From Comamonas sp. (GTDB taxonomy: Bacteria; Pseudomonadota; Gammaproteobacteria; Burkholderiales; Burkholderiaceae_C): a DNA stretch of 64,000 nt. How positions within the stretch are numbered: the first letter of the stretch is position 1; every line of letters begins with the position of its first letter. Of this stretch, positions 33,350 through 63,031 are shown piece after piece. Under the pieces are notes generated by a model, which was not told where the DNA came from, did no database searches, and saw only the letters and a list, made by a program, of their open reading frames with translations. Position numbers and translations under genes: made by a program. The DNA lies in the NCBI GenBank assembly GCA_031277805.1, contig JAITLR010000021.1, positions 62,001-126,000 on the forward strand. The letters run 5' to 3'.

Positions 33350-33604
33350 TCAGCCGCCGGTGACAGGCGGAAAGAAAGCCACTTCGTCACCGCTCTTCAA
33401 GGCTGCATCGCCTGCGCACATGTCCTGATTCAGCGCCATACGCACGGCACGGCCTTCGGCCAGCGCCTGGGAGGCAGCTTCGCTTTTACCCATCAGCTCG
33501 GCGCGCAGTGCGCCCACGGTGGCGGCGGCCGTCTGCAGGCTTTCGCTGCCGGTGCCCATGGCTTCACGGATCGATGCGAAATAACGCACGGTAATGGTGT
33601 TCAT
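33350..33604 (-). CDS. moaD: Molybdopterin synthase sulfur carrier subunit
   Basis: MoaD is the ubiquitin-like sulfur carrier that gives sulfur to precursor Z through its C-terminal thiocarboxylate. The 84-residue protein starts MNTITVRYFASIREAMG and ends in the essential Gly-Gly (PPVTGG). This small beta-grasp protein works with MoaE, encoded 3 kb away. It is the last gene of the mobB-moeA-moaD series and starts 11 bases after moeA. Confidence 0.95.
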   Translation of the reverse strand: MNTITVRYFASIREAMGTGSESLQTAAATVGALRAELMGKSEAASQALAEGRAVRMALNQDMCAGDAALKSGDEVAFFPPVTGG

Positions 33605-33615
33605 TGGCTGCTCCT

Positions 33616-34872
33616 TCAGGCCATCAGCTCGGCAAACGGGATAAAGCGCACGCTGTCACCCTCGGCAATCGTGGTGTTGGCGGGGTTATCGACCACGCCG
33701 TCACCCCAGGCGGTGGAGGTCAGCACGCCGGAGCTCTGGTTCTTGAACAGCTCCAGCCCGCCATGCTCGTTGTAGCGCACTCGCAGAAATTCACGGCGCT
33801 TGTCGCCCTTGGGCCAGACAAAATCGGCCCGCGCCGCAATGGAGCGCGGCAGCACGTTCTGCACACCCTGCAGGCGCAGCAAGAAGGGGCGCACCAGCAC
33901 CTGGAAGGTGACAAAGCTGGAGACCGGGTTGCCTGGCAGGCCGATGAAGTGCGCAAAGCCCGAGCCGTATTCGCGGTTGACGCGGCCATAGGCAAAGGGC
34001 TTGCCGGGCTTGATGCTGATCTGCCAGAGGTCAAGCTGGCCCAGCTGCTGCACGGCAGGCTTGATATGGTCTTCTTCACCTACCGAGACACCACCGCTGG
34101 TGACGATCACATCATGGTCTATGGCTGCATCGGCCAAGGCCGTGATCGTGGCTTCTCGATCGTCGGGAACAATGCCCAGATCCGTCACCTCGCAGCCCAT
34201 GCGCAGCAGCAGCGCACGCAGGAAAAAGCGGTTGCTGTTGTAGATGCTGCCTGGCTTCATGTCCTGCGGCGCCACGGTGCCGGGCATGACCAGCTCGTCG
34301 CCCGTGGAGAACAGTGCCACGCGCGGCTTGCGCGCCACGGGCAGGCTGGCAAAACCCATACTGGCAGCCAGGCCCAGATGGGCCGGCGTGAGGCGCGTAC
34401 CCGCTTCGATCACGGTTGCCCCCTGAGTGATGTCCTCGCCCGAGCGGCGAATCCATTGGCCAGACACCGGCTGGGCCTTGATGCGCACGCGGCCATCCTC
34501 CTGCACTTCGCAGTCTTCCTGCATGACGATGGCGTCCGCGCCCGCAGGCACGGGAGCACCCGTGAAGATACGTGCGACAGAGCCTGCGACCAGCGCTTCG
34601 GGCGAGGTACCGGCAGGAATGCGCTGGGATACAGGCAGCACGGCATCGCCGCTCACGCATTCGGCGGCGCGCACGGCATAGCCATCCATGGCCGAGTTGT
34701 CCTGGGGCGGCACCTGCAGCGGGGAGACCGCGGCCTGCAACAGCACACGGCCATCGGCATCAAAGGTATCGACCTGCTGAACGCCCGCCATCGGCTGAGC
34801 ATGAGCCAACAGCTCTTGCAGTGCTTCATCCAGAGGCTTGAGGGGTTTGCGAGGCGTCTGTGGGACTTGCAT
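33616..34872 (-). CDS. moeA: Molybdopterin molybdenumtransferase
   Basis: MoeA inserts molybdate into adenylated molybdopterin. The ATG on 34870-34872 has AAGGAAAG well placed upstream and gives 418 residues. The protein has the family motifs DNSAMDGYAVR, GAPVPAGADAIVMQED, STGDEL and TSGGVSVGEEDH, followed by the C-terminal domain IV. It lies between mobB (14 bases upstream) and moaD (11 bases downstream) on the same strand, forming a molybdenum cofactor operon. Confidence 0.97.
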   Translation of the reverse strand: MQVPQTPRKPLKPLDEALQELLAHAQPMAGVQQVDTFDADGRVLLQAAVSPLQVPPQDNSAMDGYAVRAAECVSGDAVLPVSQRIPAGTSPEALVAGSVARIFTGAPVPAGADAIVMQEDCEVQEDGRVRIKAQPVSGQWIRRSGEDITQGATVIEAGTRLTPAHLGLAASMGFASLPVARKPRVALFSTGDELVMPGTVAPQDMKPGSIYNSNRFFLRALLLRMGCEVTDLGIVPDDREATITALADAAIDHDVIVTSGGVSVGEEDHIKPAVQQLGQLDLWQISIKPGKPFAYGRVNREYGSGFAHFIGLPGNPVSSFVTFQVLVRPFLLRLQGVQNVLPRSIAARADFVWPKGDKRREFLRVRYNEHGGLELFKNQSSGVLTSTAWGDGVVDNPANTTIAEGDSVRFIPFAELMA

Positions 34873-34886
34873 TGCGGTGTCTTTCC

Positions 34887-35429
34887 TTAATTCTTGTATT
34901 GCAGTGAGTCTGCGTGATCCTGCAACCATTGCAGCACGGCCTGCGGCTGGTTCAAATCCAGCACGGGCTGGGCCGGCGGCTGGGGCAGATCATGAGTTGC
35001 ATCGGTGGCCACGGCCATCACCCTGGCGTCATGCGGGTACAGCGGCTCTATGCTCTTGCCCTTGTCCAGCCGGTCCTGCTGCCGCCGCCAGACTTCGATC
35101 TTGGGCACATCGCCATGCTTGAAGCCTTCGATCAGCACCCAGTCCACAGCAGGGTCCAGCTGCGCCAGCATGTCATGCACGCTGAGCTCGACAGGCTGCT
35201 CATACTCGCGCATCAGTGCCATGCGCTGGTCAGAGGCCAGCAGCACCTCATAGGCTCCCGCCTTGCGGTGACGCCAGCTGTCCTTGCCTTCGCGGTCCAC
35301 ATCGAAGTGGTGATGGGCATGCTTGATGACCGAGACCTTGAGCCCACGCTGCTTCATCAGCGCCACAAGAGCCTCGACCAAAGTGGTCTTGCCCGAGCCC
35401 GAATATCCGGCAAAGCCTATGACCTTCAT
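34887..35429 (-). CDS. mobB: Molybdopterin-guanine dinucleotide biosynthesis adapter protein MobB
   Basis: MobB is a GTP-binding protein that assists MobA in attaching GMP to molybdopterin. The ATG on 35427-35429 gives MKVIGFAGYSGSGKTTLVEAL, with a Walker A motif GYSGSGKTT. The HAHHHFDVDREGKDSWRHRKAGA segment is typical of MobB. Length is 180 residues. The upstream in-frame starts fall within a repeat copy and are unlikely. It is followed by moeA with 14 bases between. Confidence 0.93.
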   Translation of the reverse strand: MKVIGFAGYSGSGKTTLVEALVALMKQRGLKVSVIKHAHHHFDVDREGKDSWRHRKAGAYEVLLASDQRMALMREYEQPVELSVHDMLAQLDPAVDWVLIEGFKHGDVPKIEVWRRQQDRLDKGKSIEPLYPHDARVMAVATDATHDLPQPPAQPVLDLNQPQAVLQWLQDHADSLQYKN

Positions 35430-56962: not shown

Positions 56963-57015
56963 TCTCACTTGGGGTTTGCCTAATTTGAGTTCAACTATCA
57001 ATAAATGAGCTTCTA

Positions 57016-58183
<1,168 letters not shown>

Positions 58184-58294
58184 TCCCATTTCCATATCAA
58201 TCGATTACTTTGTCGGCTTCGCTTGCCGTGCTACAGCACTGTCTTCGCTTCGCCTTCGCGTACTCGAATGATCTGGAATTGGAATAAGCCCCCG

Positions 58295-58344
58295 CGCTGC
58301 AAGGATCGGCTTTACGCGGCCCTTGCAGCGAATCAAGTTTTTTT
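58295..58344 (+). terminator. Intrinsic terminator after leuB
   Basis: CGCTGCAAGG and CCTTGCAGCG make a perfect 10-bp stem around a 16-base loop and are followed by AATCAAG and seven T residues. It lies 110 bases past the leuB stop and before the asd leader region. Confidence 0.8.
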
Positions 58345-58404
58345 GGCGTTTTCAATCAAAACGTCAAAAATAAATCTTTAATTTCGACGATTTGACGATT
58401 GTTT

Positions 58405-58430
58405 AAAGCACATTTAACAAACTGTGCTTT
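58405..58430. promoter_or_regulatory. Inverted repeat in the asd promoter region
   Basis: AAAGCACA at 58405-58412 and TGTGCTTT at 58423-58430 are a perfect 8-bp inverted repeat with a 10-base spacer. TTGACG lies just upstream (58392-58397) with TAACAA 17 bases after, inside the spacer, so it could be an operator over the promoter. Confidence 0.5.
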
Positions 58431-58458
58431 TCCCGCATTCGCTAGAATTAGAACTCTT

Positions 58459-58557
58459 ATGTTTGCCGCACGCACCTTCAACACTGAAACCGCCACACCT
58501 GCAATGCTTGCCGGTCTGGACGCGCGCGCAATCACCATTAAGACGATTACAGGCTGA
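58459..58557 (+). CDS. Putative 32-residue leader peptide of asd
   Basis: An ATG at 58459 opens a 32-codon frame that ends at TGA 58555-58557, 93 bases before asd. The peptide begins MFAARTFNTETATPAMLAG and ends RAITIKTITG. It has seven Thr and three Ile; the last residues are Ile-Thr-Ile-Lys-Thr-Ile-Thr, all (except Gly) end products of the aspartate pathway that asd feeds. The start lacks a strong Shine-Dalgarno sequence; a TAGAAT -10-like box at 58443 would place transcription close to the ATG. Hairpins follow directly. The peptide is inferred from the sequence; translation is not proven. It is too short to rule out chance. Confidence 0.5.
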   Translation: MFAARTFNTETATPAMLAGLDARAITIKTITG

Positions 58558-58563
58558 CCCAGC

Positions 58564-58644
58564 CCGGTTCGTCGTGCGCCCTTTCCGGCTCAGACGAGCC
58601 GGACGAAGCAGTCTCAAGCTACTGTTTTCAAAACTGAAAGGGCG
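58564..58644 (+). promoter_or_regulatory. Candidate alternative-hairpin leader controlling asd translation
   Basis: CCGGTTCGTC (58564-58573) can pair over 10 bp with GACGAGCCGG (58593-58602); the last 7 bases of that arm can instead pair with CCGGCTC (58585-58591). CGCCCTTTC (58577-58585) is exactly complementary to GAAAGGGCG (58636-58644), which contains the ribosome-binding AAAGGG of asd. The long hairpin puts CGCCCTTTC in its loop. These pairings are seen directly; switching between them is inference. Confidence 0.5.
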
Positions 58645-58650
58645 TTTCAA

Positions 58651-59763
58651 ATGAGCAAGCAATTGGTAGGTTTGGTGGGCTGGCGCGGCATGGTCGGCTC
58701 CGTGCTGATGGACCGCATGCAGGCCGAAGGCGACTTCGCGCTGATCGAGCCGGTGTTCTTCTCCACCTCCAACGCCGGCGGCAAGGCCCCCGCGATGGCC
58801 ACGGTGCACACCCAGCTCAAGGATGCCAACGACATCGCCGAGCTGTCCAAGTGCGACATCATCATCACCTGCCAGGGCGGCGACTACACCAAGGAAGTCT
58901 TCCCCAAGATCCGCGCCGCCGGCTGGAACGGCCATTGGATCGACGCAGCCTCCTCGCTGCGCATGGAAGATGACGCCGTCATCGTGCTGGACCCCGTCAA
59001 CGACGACCTGATCCAATCCAAGCTGGCCGCAGGCGGCAAGAACTGGATCGGCGGCAACTGCACCAACTCCATCCTGCTGATGGGCCTGGGCGGCCTGTTC
59101 AAGGCCGGTCTGGTCGAATGGGTCTCCTCCATGACCTACCAGGCAGCATCGGGCGGCGGCGCCAACCACATGCGCGAGCTGCTCAAGGGCATGGGCGTGG
59201 TACACGCGGCCGTAGCCGACGAGCTGGCAACACCTGCTTCCGCCATCCTGGAAATCGACCGCAAGGTGGCTGAAACCATCCGCACCGATGTGCCCACCGA
59301 GTTCTTCGGCGCACCTCTGGCTGGCGGCCTGATCCCCTGGATCGACGTGCAACTGCCAAACGGTCAGTCCAAGGAAGAATGGAAGGGCCAGGCCGAAGTC
59401 AACAAGATCCTCGGCACCGACGCCACGATTCCCGTGGACGGTCTGTGCGTGCGTATCGGCGCCATGCGCTGCCACAGCCTCGCACTGACGCTGAAGCTCA
59501 AGAAGGATCTGCCTCTGGAAGAGATCGAAGCGCTGATCAAGGGCGGCAACCCCTGGGTCAAGTTTGTGGCCAATGACCGTGCCGAGACCGTCAAGGAACT
59601 GACCCCTGCCGCGACCACCGGCGGCCTCGAAGTGGCCGTGGGCCGCGTGCGCAAGCTCAACATGGGCCCCGAGTATGTCTCCGCCTTCGTGATCGGTGAC
59701 CAGTTGCTGTGGGGTGCGGCCGAGCCGTTGCGCCGCATGCTGCGCATTCTGCTGGCTGCCTGA
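58651..59763 (+). CDS. asd: Aspartate-semialdehyde dehydrogenase
   Basis: Asd makes aspartate semialdehyde, the branch point to lysine, threonine, methionine, isoleucine and diaminopimelate. The 370-residue protein starts [23 protein letters not shown] with the NADP-binding GxxGxxG-like loop. The active-site cysteine is in [13 protein letters not shown], and the substrate arginine-containing and histidine motifs ([20 protein letters not shown]) follow. This is the Escherichia coli-type enzyme. AAAGGG is eight bases upstream of the ATG and lies in the candidate regulatory pairing. fimV, truA and trpF follow on the same strand. Confidence 0.98.
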
Positions 59764-59800
59764 GCTCGCTGAAACATGTTTCGCTGGCTTGAGCCAGCGC

Positions 59801-59842
59801 AAAAAGCGCCATACCACGCTCGTCGCGGATGGCGCTTTTTTC
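59801..59842 (+). terminator. Intrinsic terminator after asd
   Basis: AAAAGCGCCAT and ATGGCGCTTTT pair around a 16-base loop and continue into six T residues, about 40 bases past the asd stop. Confidence 0.88.
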
Positions 59843-59887
59843 ATGTCCAAGCCCAGGCTTGGGCCACAATCACCCGTTTGTTTCAAC

Positions 59888-59910
59888 GAGTCAGCCTGCC
59901 AGGCTGACTC
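59888..59910. promoter_or_regulatory. Perfect 23-base palindrome upstream of fimV
   Basis: GAGTCAGCCTG and CAGGCTGACTC form an uninterrupted inverted repeat around a single C, inside the 370-base gap between asd and fimV (59764-60133). AAGCC-CA-GGCTT, a smaller palindrome, lies just upstream. No T run follows it. The remaining gap holds possible fimV promoter sequence (TTGACA at about 59956 and 59993) but no recognised gene. Confidence 0.6.
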
Positions 59911-60133
59911 TATATTCGCTGGCATCTCGTTGCCAATCGACAACATTACTTCGCCTTGACAAGGATGCAATTGCTCACAGTGCAATAGCGTCGTTGACAA
60001 TGCAGACTGTGTCCTACGGGCCGAGAAACACTTCGCCGACCGTCGGAAATTTCATTGACTGATGCATCCACCCTTGAATCTCGCTACAAAAACAATAGAG
60101 CGGGCTGGATGCACAAACCAAGTTTGATGCCTT

Positions 60134-63031
60134 ATGCAACGCTGGAAACTCTCTGCGCTAGCCGCTGCCTCCCTCGCTCTGTCCAGCCTCACGGTCACCG
60201 ATGCTTGGGCCCTGGCACTGGGCCGCATCACCGTTCAGTCGGCACTGGGAGAGCCACTGCGCGCAGAGGTCGAGATTCCCCAACTGAGCGCTACCGAAGC
60301 CGAAAGCCTTCAAGCGGCCGTCGCACCCGCGGCCACCTTCCGCGCTCAAGGCATGGAATACACCGGTACGGCCAACTCCGTGCGCGTCAAGGTTCAAAAG
60401 CGTGCCAATGGTTCAGCGGTGCTGCAACTGAGCAGCAGCCAGCCTGTGAACGACCCATTTGTAGACCTGGTGATCGACGCCAACTGGGCTTCCGGCAAGA
60501 TTCAGCGCAACTACACTCTGCTGCTGGATCCCCCCGCATCACGCCGCCCGGCTCCCGCCCCCGTGACTGCAGCTCAGGCTCCCGCGGAGACACAACCTCG
60601 TCCTGCCCGTCCTGCAGTCGTCGAGCGCTCTGCCCAGGTCGCGCCGACACCGGCCGTGACTGCCGCACAAGGTCGTGACTTGCGCAATGACCGTGATCAG
60701 GATGAGGGGTCAGCCAAAGCAGCTCGCGCCTCTCGGAACAAGGGCCAAGTTGCAGCCGCGCCAGCCCGCGACAACGAAGCAGACACAGTGCGCGTAAAGA
60801 CAGGCGATACCGCAGGCCGCATTGCATCTGCCAACAAGCCTGCCGGCGTGTCGCTGGATCAGATGCTGGTCGCCATGCTGCGCAGCAACCCCCAGGCCTT
60901 TGTCAACGGCAACATCAATCGCATGCGCAGCGGCGCCGTGATTCAGCTGCCCGATGCGGCCACTGCACAAGCCACGTCCAACAAGGAAGCGCGCCAGATC
61001 ATGGCCGCCCAGTCGCGCGACTTCAATGAATTCCGCCGCCAGTTGGCCGGCATCGCGCCGGTTGCTCCTGTGGCGGCAGCCTCGCGCAGCGCCTCGGGTC
61101 AGGTTCAGGCCCATGTGGAAGACAGCAAGCCCAACACGGCAGCGCCTGACAAGCTGACCCTCTCCAAAGGCTCGGTCAAAGGCACGGTCGCCGATGAAAA
61201 GCTGGCGCAGCAAAAGCAGGCCTCGGATCAGTCTGCCCGCACCGACGAACTCAAGCGCAACATGGCCGAGCTCAGCCAGATTGCCGCAGCAACACAGCCT
61301 GCCGGCGGTGCAGCTGCGCCTGCAGCCAGCGCAGCTGCCCCAGCAGCAACACCAGGTGTGAACGTTCCACTGGCGACCGCAGCCAATAATGCTGCAGCCG
61401 CTCCAGCTCCCGCCGCGGCAACGCCTGCGGCTTCTGCCCCCGCGCCTGAAGCAGGTACGCAGCCCACCGAAGCCGCCAAACCGGCTGAACCCACAGCCGC
61501 ACCTGCAGCAGATGCAGGTACCGCACCGGACGCTGCAGCACCCACCCCAGATACTCCCTCGGCGGAAGCCCCTCCTGCGGCCCCCGCTCCGGCCCCAGCA
61601 CCCAAGCCAGCCCTGGCCCCTGTGGCTCCACCACCCGAACCCAGCTTCATAGACGGCCTGATGGACGACCCCACCATTCCGCTGGCGGGCGCAGCCATAT
61701 TGGCTCTATTGCTGGGCTATGGCGGCTACCGAGTGGCCCAGCGCCGCAAGGCCGCTGCGGCTGCCAGCGCCGACAGTTCGCTGGGCGACAGCCAGCTGGG
61801 CACCGACTCGTTCTTCGGCGCCAGCGGTGGTCAGCGTGTGGATACCACCACGACCAGCAGCCAGATGTCAGGGCAATCCATGCAGTACTCGCCCAGCCAG
61901 CTGGACGCCGGTGATGTGGACCCTCTGGCCGAAGCCGACGTCTATCTGGCCTATGGCCGTGATCTGCAGGCCGAGGAAATCCTCAAGGAAGCCCTGCGCA
62001 CCGATCCCAACCGCCTGGTTCTGCATCAGAAGCTGGCGGAAATCTATGCCAAGCGCAACGACCGGATTGCCTACGCCGCCGTAGCCAGCAATCTCTACAA
62101 CCTGACCCAGGGCAAGGGCTCTGAATGGCAACGCGTGGCCGATCAGGGACGAACCCTGGATCCCGACAACACCCTGTACCAGCCCGGCGGCCAGACTGCG
62201 GCCAGCTCCTCCGCCCCTCAGGGGTTGGACACGATGGGCATGGCTCCTGCCGCCGCTGTCGCAGGCGGCATGGCCTTCGGCGATGCCCTGGCTTCGGTCA
62301 ACCAGGCACTCAAGGAGCCAGATCTTGCCCAAGACCACGAAGGCCCTCCCACCCAGCCCACGAATATGGACTTCGGCCTGGATCTGGATCTGCCCACAGG
62401 TCTCGCCGATACCCAGGCTCCTGTCGCGCAGCCTCTGCCGGATGTCACAGCACCTCAGCCCAGCGAGCAAGACTTCGCTTCGCTGGCGCAATGGGACACA
62501 CCTGCCCCCACTCCTGCGGCAGACAACGGCCTGAATCTGGACCTGGACGACCTGGCCTCCTTCAGCCTGCCTACCGCTCAGCCACCTGCGGCCACCGAGC
62601 CCACCGCCACTCCGCCAGCCGATACGCTCAATGCGCTGGAGTTCGACCTGGACAGCTTTGCCCCGCCACAGGCAAAGGCCGAAGCACCCTCGGCAGAGCT
62701 ATCGCTGACCGATGACGAGGTGACGCTGCGGCAACCCATCGACGCAGGTAACAGCCATGCAAACGCCGCGCCTCAAGCCGAGTCAGAGCCTGTGTTCGAC
62801 CTCAGTGGTCTGTCACTGGACCTGGGTACCTCTCCAGAAGCTGCCATGGCTCCCGCCGCGGCCACGCCCTCCATGCCGGAAGATCCCATGGCCACCAAGC
62901 TGGCTTTGGCCGAAGAGTTCAATGCCATTGGTGACAGTGACGGAGCGCGTACACTCATCGAAGAAGTGATCGCCGAAGCCCATGGCGATCTCAAAGCCAA
63001 GGCCCAGGCCTTGCTTTCTCAGATTGGTTGA
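60134..63031 (+). CDS. fimV: FimV-family pilus/polarity protein
   Basis: FimV is an inner-membrane, peptidoglycan-binding protein needed for type IV pilus function and polar localisation. The 965-residue protein has a signal peptide, LSALAAASLALSSLTVTDAWA, followed by the FimV N-terminal domain (LALGRITVQSALGEPLRAEVEIPQLS). A LysM-like segment lies at about 217-275. An Ala/Pro-rich linker (about 380-505) precedes one membrane helix (about 515-535, PLAGAAILALLLGYGGYRVA). The cytoplasmic part has a TPR-like segment (about 597-640) and ends in the conserved FimV C-terminal domain (KLALAEEFNAIGDSDGARTLIEEVIAEAHGDLKAKAQALLSQI). It is followed by truA. Confidence 0.94.
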   Translation: MQRWKLSALAAASLALSSLTVTDAWALALGRITVQSALGEPLRAEVEIPQLSATEAESLQAAVAPAATFRAQGMEYTGTANSVRVKVQKRANGSAVLQLSSSQPVNDPFVDLVIDANWASGKIQRNYTLLLDPPASRRPAPAPVTAAQAPAETQPRPARPAVVERSAQVAPTPAVTAAQGRDLRNDRDQDEGSAKAARASRNKGQVAAAPARDNEADTVRVKTGDTAGRIASANKPAGVSLDQMLVAMLRSNPQAFVNGNINRMRSGAVIQLPDAATAQATSNKEARQIMAAQSRDFNEFRRQLAGIAPVAPVAAASRSASGQVQAHVEDSKPNTAAPDKLTLSKGSVKGTVADEKLAQQKQASDQSARTDELKRNMAELSQIAAATQPAGGAAAPAASAAAPAATPGVNVPLATAANNAAAAPAPAAATPAASAPAPEAGTQPTEAAKPAEPTAAPAADAGTAPDAAAPTPDTPSAEAPPAAPAPAPAPKPALAPVAPPPEPSFIDGLMDDPTIPLAGAAILALLLGYGGYRVAQRRKAAAAASADSSLGDSQLGTDSFFGASGGQRVDTTTTSSQMSGQSMQYSPSQLDAGDVDPLAEADVYLAYGRDLQAEEILKEALRTDPNRLVLHQKLAEIYAKRNDRIAYAAVASNLYNLTQGKGSEWQRVADQGRTLDPDNTLYQPGGQTAASSSAPQGLDTMGMAPAAAVAGGMAFGDALASVNQALKEPDLAQDHEGPPTQPTNMDFGLDLDLPTGLADTQAPVAQPLPDVTAPQPSEQDFASLAQWDTPAPTPAADNGLNLDLDDLASFSLPTAQPPAATEPTATPPADTLNALEFDLDSFAPPQAKAEAPSAELSLTDDEVTLRQPIDAGNSHANAAPQAESEPVFDLSGLSLDLGTSPEAAMAPAAATPSMPEDPMATKLALAEEFNAIGDSDGARTLIEEVIAEAHGDLKAKAQALLSQIG

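Follow-up and report, generated by a model that had tools for sequence, protein, structure and literature searches.

The leaders thrL, ilvL, leuL, hisL and trpL are ribosome-mediated transcription attenuators of amino-acid operons. They have a short leader with codons for the products of the pathway, and the position of the ribosome decides which of the competing hairpins is formed. The element which we describe here, located upstream of asd, is alike in these features. It differs in its output, which would be the ribosome-binding site of asd and, in most loci, not an intrinsic terminator. It also differs by having three amino acids in one tail, by a transcript which is probably leaderless and by the fact that its tail can be the end of an enzyme. 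In systems of the SecM and MifM type, the site of a gene is opened when the ribosome stalls near the C-terminus of the protein encoded before it; these are sensors of secretion or insertion with a sequence-specific arrest, whereas here amino-acid starvation would be sensed in the tail of an enzyme. In the ermC type, translation of a leader frees or hides the SD sequence of the following gene. Here too the translation of a leader would govern access to the SD of the next gene, but the signal would be amino-acid supply instead of an antibiotic or a general slowdown, and the target is biosynthetic. Attenuation of the ermC type is mentioned in PMC2965389, in whose main text the word asd does not appear.

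Other RNA elements lie before genes of amino-acid synthesis. The asd RNA motif (RF01732) is also located before asd; it belongs to another phylum, and no Rfam family, RF01732 included, matches the region studied here or 15 related loci. The LEU element, found 5' of leuA in Actinobacteria, combines regulatory codons in a leader peptide with a stem which reaches the SD (PMC1262725). There the run of codons pairs directly with the SD, next to a pseudoknot, whereas here a separate anti-SD sequence lies in a switchable hairpin. PMC2864571 lists the asd motif in Lactobacillales and also an undescribed Burkholderiales-1 motif; PMC4239095 mentions asd once, under MetJ. No prior report of our element was found in the openly licensed literature on asd leaders and attenuation. 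Translation attenuation by a leader peptide is already known.

The asd leader locus and its distribution

We have analysed a stretch of 64,000 nt of a Comamonas sp., which we call the window. The genes on both sides of the element are presumably leuB and asd: these names come from a preliminary description of the sequence. That description had given positions for the leader, the arms and the complementary pair, and all of them are found where it had placed them. The features of the locus are as follows.

57107–58183, plus strand: leuB, upstream neighbour of the leader (from the list of open reading frames)
58443–58448, plus strand: −10-like box TAGAAT, 10 nt 5' of the leader ATG; it predicts a transcript start at the ATG or within a few nt of it
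58459–58557, plus strand: leader reading frame of 32 codons and a stop, MFAARTFNTETATPAMLAGLDARAITIKTITG, ending in RAITIKTITG
58528–58551, plus strand: putative sensing tail AITIKTIT, the eight codons preceding the final Gly codon
58564–58573, plus strand: arm A, CCGGTTCGTC; judging from its footprint, a ribosome at the stop codon would partly cover it
58576–58585, plus strand: anti-SD sequence S, GCGCCCTTTC, in the loop of the A:B hairpin; it includes CGCCCTTTC at 58577–58585
58585–58591, plus strand: arm B', CCGGCTC, rival of arm A for arm B
58593–58602, plus strand: arm B, GACGAGCCGG, whose partner is either A or B'
58605–58628, plus strand: third hairpin, GAAGCAGT / ACTGTTTT; in the predicted OFF fold it is enclosed, with B':B, by the S:SD helix
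58636–58645, plus strand: asd ribosome-binding region, GAAAGGGCGT, complementary to S; it includes GAAAGGGCG at 58636–58644
58651–59763, plus strand: asd, aspartate-semialdehyde dehydrogenase, with its ATG at 58651 (from the list of open reading frames)

LeuB of the window ends without a Thr/Ile/Lys tail, so that the leader stands alone. On the minus strand an open frame of 528 codons (58414–60000) runs antisense to asd and the leader; it is probably a by-product of GC-rich codon usage. A terminator-like hairpin lies directly 3' of asd (59821–59834), the only one found in a scan of positions 57000–60300.

Upstream regions were gathered through the Asd protein from 53 Comamonas genomes, 52 of them with an Asd match, and from 80 loci of named genomes. 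A covariance model built on 67 cores, with the tail included, finds the element before asd in 49 of the 53 Comamonas genomes (E<1e-19). The other four are a genome with a partial asd (G013), one with no Asd match (G016) and two which have asd and no element (G026 and G031). A search of 399 genomes of the whole family at E≤0.01 gives matches of the model in 319 genomes and in 121 of 141 genera; the weakest of these may be due to chance. The preliminary description had proposed to look for the short frame, its tail and the arms in close relatives, and they are present at both levels. Judged from the sequences, this conservation and the covariation of the hairpins place the arrangement beyond chance.

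A draw of 399 genomes from the whole order gave 22 matches at E≤0.001. Twelve of them, none weaker than 1.9e-11, are in members of the family, and the ten from other families reach 1.2e-5 at best. We have rejected the presence of the element outside the family: around the three strongest non-family matches, no Asd motif lies closer than about 600 nt. Second copies elsewhere in the genomes were also rejected as chance; nine weak matches of the model were viewed by eye and have no Thr/Ile/Lys tail.

We fetched one locus through the model from each of 120 of the 319 matching family genomes, and asd is the next gene in 118 of them. One exception (L191) is a weak match, E 0.0078, where no asd was found. 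The other (L236, in G087:C18) has an inserted gene: the element is at 35087–35163, asd is at 33375–34493 and the ATG of the intervening gene lies just past arm B. This gene is presumably acetyltransferase-like, judging from its sequence, and the switch may now be acting on it. The loci which could be parsed are 183, many of them originally fetched through asd; 180 are distinct. L191 and L236 were left unparsed, L024 and L093 have no model match, and L024 and L110 were false pattern matches in an early motif search.

Some relatives lack the element. Of the 80 family genomes without a model match, 12 were examined through Asd, and so was G087 with its displaced asd. Several of these 13 have an ordinary LeuB end and no element; some have remnants, either tails such as KMTG and NKSKG before the stop or hairpins whose tail has decayed. 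L263, L267, L271, L273 and L274 have a decayed tail or have lost the hairpins, possibly a natural series of element loss. In the Comamonas locus L024 (G031), inspected by eye, the −10-like box and the third hairpin are kept and a long inverted repeat replaces the leader and arms A to B. In Ralstonia sp. UNC404CL21Col (L093) a frame 5' of asd ends in TTTKIITKKTIS and a stop, with very different hairpins which the model does not match; it is perhaps a diverged or an independent leader.

The leader and its Thr/Ile/Lys tail

Asd feeds a pathway which has Thr, Ile and Lys among its end products. The preliminary description had noted a run of these three at the end of the window leader, and this turns out to be a general feature: over the 180 distinct loci, Thr makes up 47.2%, Ile 21.5% and Lys 20.7% of the eight residues preceding the last one, 89% together. 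All three are present in the ten residues preceding the last one in 174 loci. Almost all codons in the tail start with A (1297 of 1440). Lys codons are found 298 times and Asn codons twice; Ile codons 310 times and Met codons five times; AGN codons for Ser are found only twice. In the background, formed by the 5' parts of asd and three genes of the window, AAC, AAG, ATC and ATG are all frequent. Since Asn, Met and AGN Ser codons are nearly absent from the tail in spite of starting with A, it is the amino acids and not an RNA bias which are selected, as far as codon counts can tell. Met is also a product of the pathway and it is hardly used. Asn is made from aspartate without Asd. The tail is strongly enriched for the rarer codons ATT and AAA when compared with the background genes: ATT is found 195 times and ATC 115, AAA 150 times and AAG 148 in the 180 loci. 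As a check of the bias due to the inclusion of the tail in the model, we used 42 distinct Comamonas loci fetched through Asd, in which the model then located the elements: on average 7.0 of their 8 tail residues are Thr, Ile or Lys, the same as overall.

Stand-alone leaders have 28–42 codons, most commonly 33. In 124 of 127 of them an in-frame ATG has a TATAAT-like box ending 6–11 nt upstream, mostly TACAAT or TAGAAT. With single random upstream positions as a control, the box appears in 38 of 623 cases; the comparison is not quite even, as the scan of leaders could try several ATGs per locus. There is no signal of a −35 box (at least four matches in 11 of 123 leaders, with 10% in the control), and a two-hexamer promoter scan of the leader region of the window found no promoter. 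Transcription begins 6–8 nt past a −10 box; with the box 6–11 nt before the ATG, the mRNA is therefore probably nearly leaderless. The preliminary description had pointed to a transcript start downstream of 58557 as an argument against its model; such a start appears unlikely given the conserved −10-like box at 58443–58448.

The frame of the leader is open in 126 of 126 stand-alone leaders; the other two frames are open in 50 and 107. The body of the leader has no coding constraint: dN/dS is about 0.86 (189 pairs) and variability at the three codon positions is 0.39, 0.42 and 0.41, with no excess in the third. What speaks for translation of the leader is therefore its open frame, together with its fixed start and its tail. 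A sequence-specific arrest by the body of the leader is unsupported, as the body shows no constraint.

The competing hairpins and the asd ribosome-binding site

The hairpins A:B and B':B share arm B and are mutually exclusive, as in other attenuators. In the window, folding gives −25.8 kcal/mol for A:B, −15.2 kcal/mol for B':B and −18.2 kcal/mol for the duplex of the anti-SD with the SD. In transcripts ending before the SD, A:B is favoured over B':B in 180 of 180 loci. When arm A is masked, B':B is formed in all 180 (at least 4 expected pairs).

In 100 chosen diverse sequences, 95.3% of the cells of A:B are paired. Two-sided changes are found in 5 of its 10 pairs, in 16 cells, as compared with 4.0 in shuffled alignments; none of 500 shuffles is as high, in an alignment which was fitted to the model. 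A first alignment of 67 cores had a single A:B pair with a two-sided change, not above shuffles, and a covariation score which was above them. The decisive pattern is a three-way one. One base of arm B has its partner in arm A in the first hairpin and in arm B' in the second: whenever it is A instead of G, both partners are T (22 of 22 loci), and when it is G, each partner is either C or T, in the 149 of 180 loci which could be parsed. These figures correspond to the stricter B' pattern, which leaves 31 of 180 loci unparsed; a looser first parse gave 21 of 22, with L237 as the exception and 27 of 180 unparsed. We count 15 changes of this base on an Asd tree, a poorly resolved one of 160 columns. 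There are five independent pairs on well-supported branches, and the partners never change in the opposite sense (p 0.0625, the minimum possible with five pairs). The two alternative hairpins of the preliminary description are thus borne out by folding and by the three-way covariation, and the compensatory changes which it suggested to look for are present in the arms.

The third hairpin has a mean z of −1.04 against mononucleotide shuffles in 167 loci; the other 13 of the 180 were too short for this test. Five loci in which the tail is fused to LeuB (L103, L169, L171, L182 and L189) have extra arms, GGACCCC and GGGGTCC, which flank the B hairpin. For three of them (L169, L171 and L182) pairing of the anti-SD is weak or could not be registered, and the output may differ.

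In the window the complementarity of CGCCCTTTC with GAAAGGGCG at the asd site is exact, as had been noted in the preliminary description. Folds of the window RNA which begin at or after the stop codon, so that the codon run is excluded as a partner, pair the SD with S at 58576–58583. The same anti-SD has a mean energy of −7.0 with the 22 nt upstream of 33 other long reading frames of the window, −15.4 in the best case, taking the first ATG as the start. Over the loci, the final assignment of the asd start differs from an older one at 43 of 183; the older starts underlie the folds of transcripts ending before the SD and those figures below which name them. If arm A is masked, at least 4 pairs are expected between S and the asd site in 146 of 180 loci; when the sites are shuffled, this is so in 19 of 180. 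The other 34 loci fall below 4 expected pairs. The duplex has a mean of −12.1, and −6.9 with shuffled sites. The motif GGGC is present in the site in 140 of the 180 loci (24 nt), or in 131 if 22 nt and the older starts are used. Within 22 nt, none of 40 asd genes lacking the element has it (most of these belong to other families), and neither do 29 of 32 other window genes, the remaining 3 having it.

The covariation of S with the SD is modest. Matched partners average −12.1 and swapped ones −11.7, a difference beyond all 100 swaps. Of eight positions, a single one does better than all 500 shuffles and a second one equals the best, in a test which ignores relatedness. In this registration three positions are nearly constant by construction, and 5 of 153 loci are unregistered. 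A C/A mismatch is found at one position of S:SD in 46 of 148 loci. Furthermore, S fits the coding stretch of asd from +30 to +52 with a mean of −12.2, about equal to the value for the site in the same test with the older starts (−11.4). The SD is therefore not the sole possible partner of the GC-rich S.

By prediction, then, the downstream SD is sequestered by an alternative helix, as in translation attenuators. The folds with a masked arm agree with a dependence on the position of the ribosome, and the equilibrium folds of full-length RNA are mixed. The full-length RNA of the window folds OFF at equilibrium even when arm A is free. Over the 180 loci, with the older starts, the site is cheaper to open when arm A is free in 120 and costlier in 47; its unpaired probability is higher in 68 and lower in 39. 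A simple equilibrium switch is thus unsupported in the window. The switch would therefore have to be kinetic, with the ON state reached during transcription. The direction of the switch given in the preliminary description follows from the predicted folds, in which the helices that it requires are formed (A:B in 180 of 180 loci in transcripts ending before the SD; B':B in 180 and S:SD in 146 with arm A masked), and the kinetic step is a correction to it.

Proposed mechanism and the LeuB configuration

We consider it quite likely that the element is a ribosome-operated translational attenuator of asd which senses Thr, Ile and Lys. The transcript would begin at or beside the ATG of a leader of about 33 codons, ending in Thr, Ile and Lys codons. 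When charged Thr, Ile or Lys tRNA is scarce, we infer that a ribosome stalls in the tail. Arm A would then be free and would pair with B immediately after the transcription of B; the hairpin thus formed would keep the anti-SD in its loop and asd would be translated. With a good supply of the amino acids, the ribosome would continue to the stop codon, which lies 9 nt before arm A, and cover the 5' part of A. A ribosome extends roughly 12–15 nt ahead of its P site. With A covered, B would pair with B', and the anti-SD thus freed would pair with the ribosome-binding site of asd in a branched OFF structure.

Three other explanations should be weighed. The leader might control an intrinsic or Rho-dependent terminator before asd, the anti-SD pairing being secondary. 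A third hairpin with a T-rich 3' arm does lie between B and asd, and terminator-like sites are found in 16 of the 180 loci, where 2.9 are expected. However the other 164 have no such site by the criterion used, nor does the leader region of the window, so that an intrinsic terminator is not a general feature of the element. In the window A and B do not overlap the third hairpin, and A:B could not switch it directly; furthermore the GGGC ribosome-binding site tracks the element. We therefore regard transcription attenuation as unlikely.

A plain translational coupling is even less probable. In this case a ribosome on the leader or on leuB would open or close the asd site with no sensing at all, and the tail would be just an unstructured, A-rich RNA. 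The predominance of codons starting with A, the location of the tail directly before the hairpins and the unconstrained body of the leader would agree with it, but it does not fit the near absence of Asn, Met and AGN Ser codons, nor the retention of all three amino acids in nearly all tails. It is very improbable, finally, that the translation of asd is set by a protein or a small RNA bound to the conserved loop CGTCGTGCGCCC, the leader being incidental. The loop is strongly conserved and is not covered by any Rfam family; however the anti-SD function already accounts for its conservation, and such a regulator leaves unexplained both the Thr/Ile/Lys tail and the spacing from the stop to the arm.

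The separate leader which had been described in the window is found in 128 of the 180 loci, the window included. In the other 52 the tail is the C-terminus of LeuB itself; the motif MGDAV was used to recognize LeuB when parsing the loci. In four Variovorax loci, for example (L085, L088, L089 and L095), LeuB ends in MGDAVVAAITKKTITG and a stop, followed by the same hairpins. In these fused loci the ribosomes which finish LeuB would do the sensing. On the Asd tree the configuration changes 22 times, and at least five of these changes are forced by well-supported branches, a count made before the correction of one label. We lean towards a family-wide attenuator for three amino acids, mostly free of terminators and nearly leaderless, with a portable tail which has been repeatedly switched between a leader frame and the C-terminus of LeuB.

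Asd stands at the branch point of the aspartate family. If our interpretation is true, a switch which reads Thr, Ile and Lys together would be a feedback route for the aspartate pathway in a large bacterial family, for which we found no such route in the openly licensed literature. A nearly leaderless start would raise the question of how initiation works on an attenuator leader, and the absences and remnants in relatives make the evolution of the element traceable. In many genera the last codons of LeuB would themselves be the starvation sensor for the next gene: an attenuator leader could thus move into the tail of an enzyme, or arise from it.
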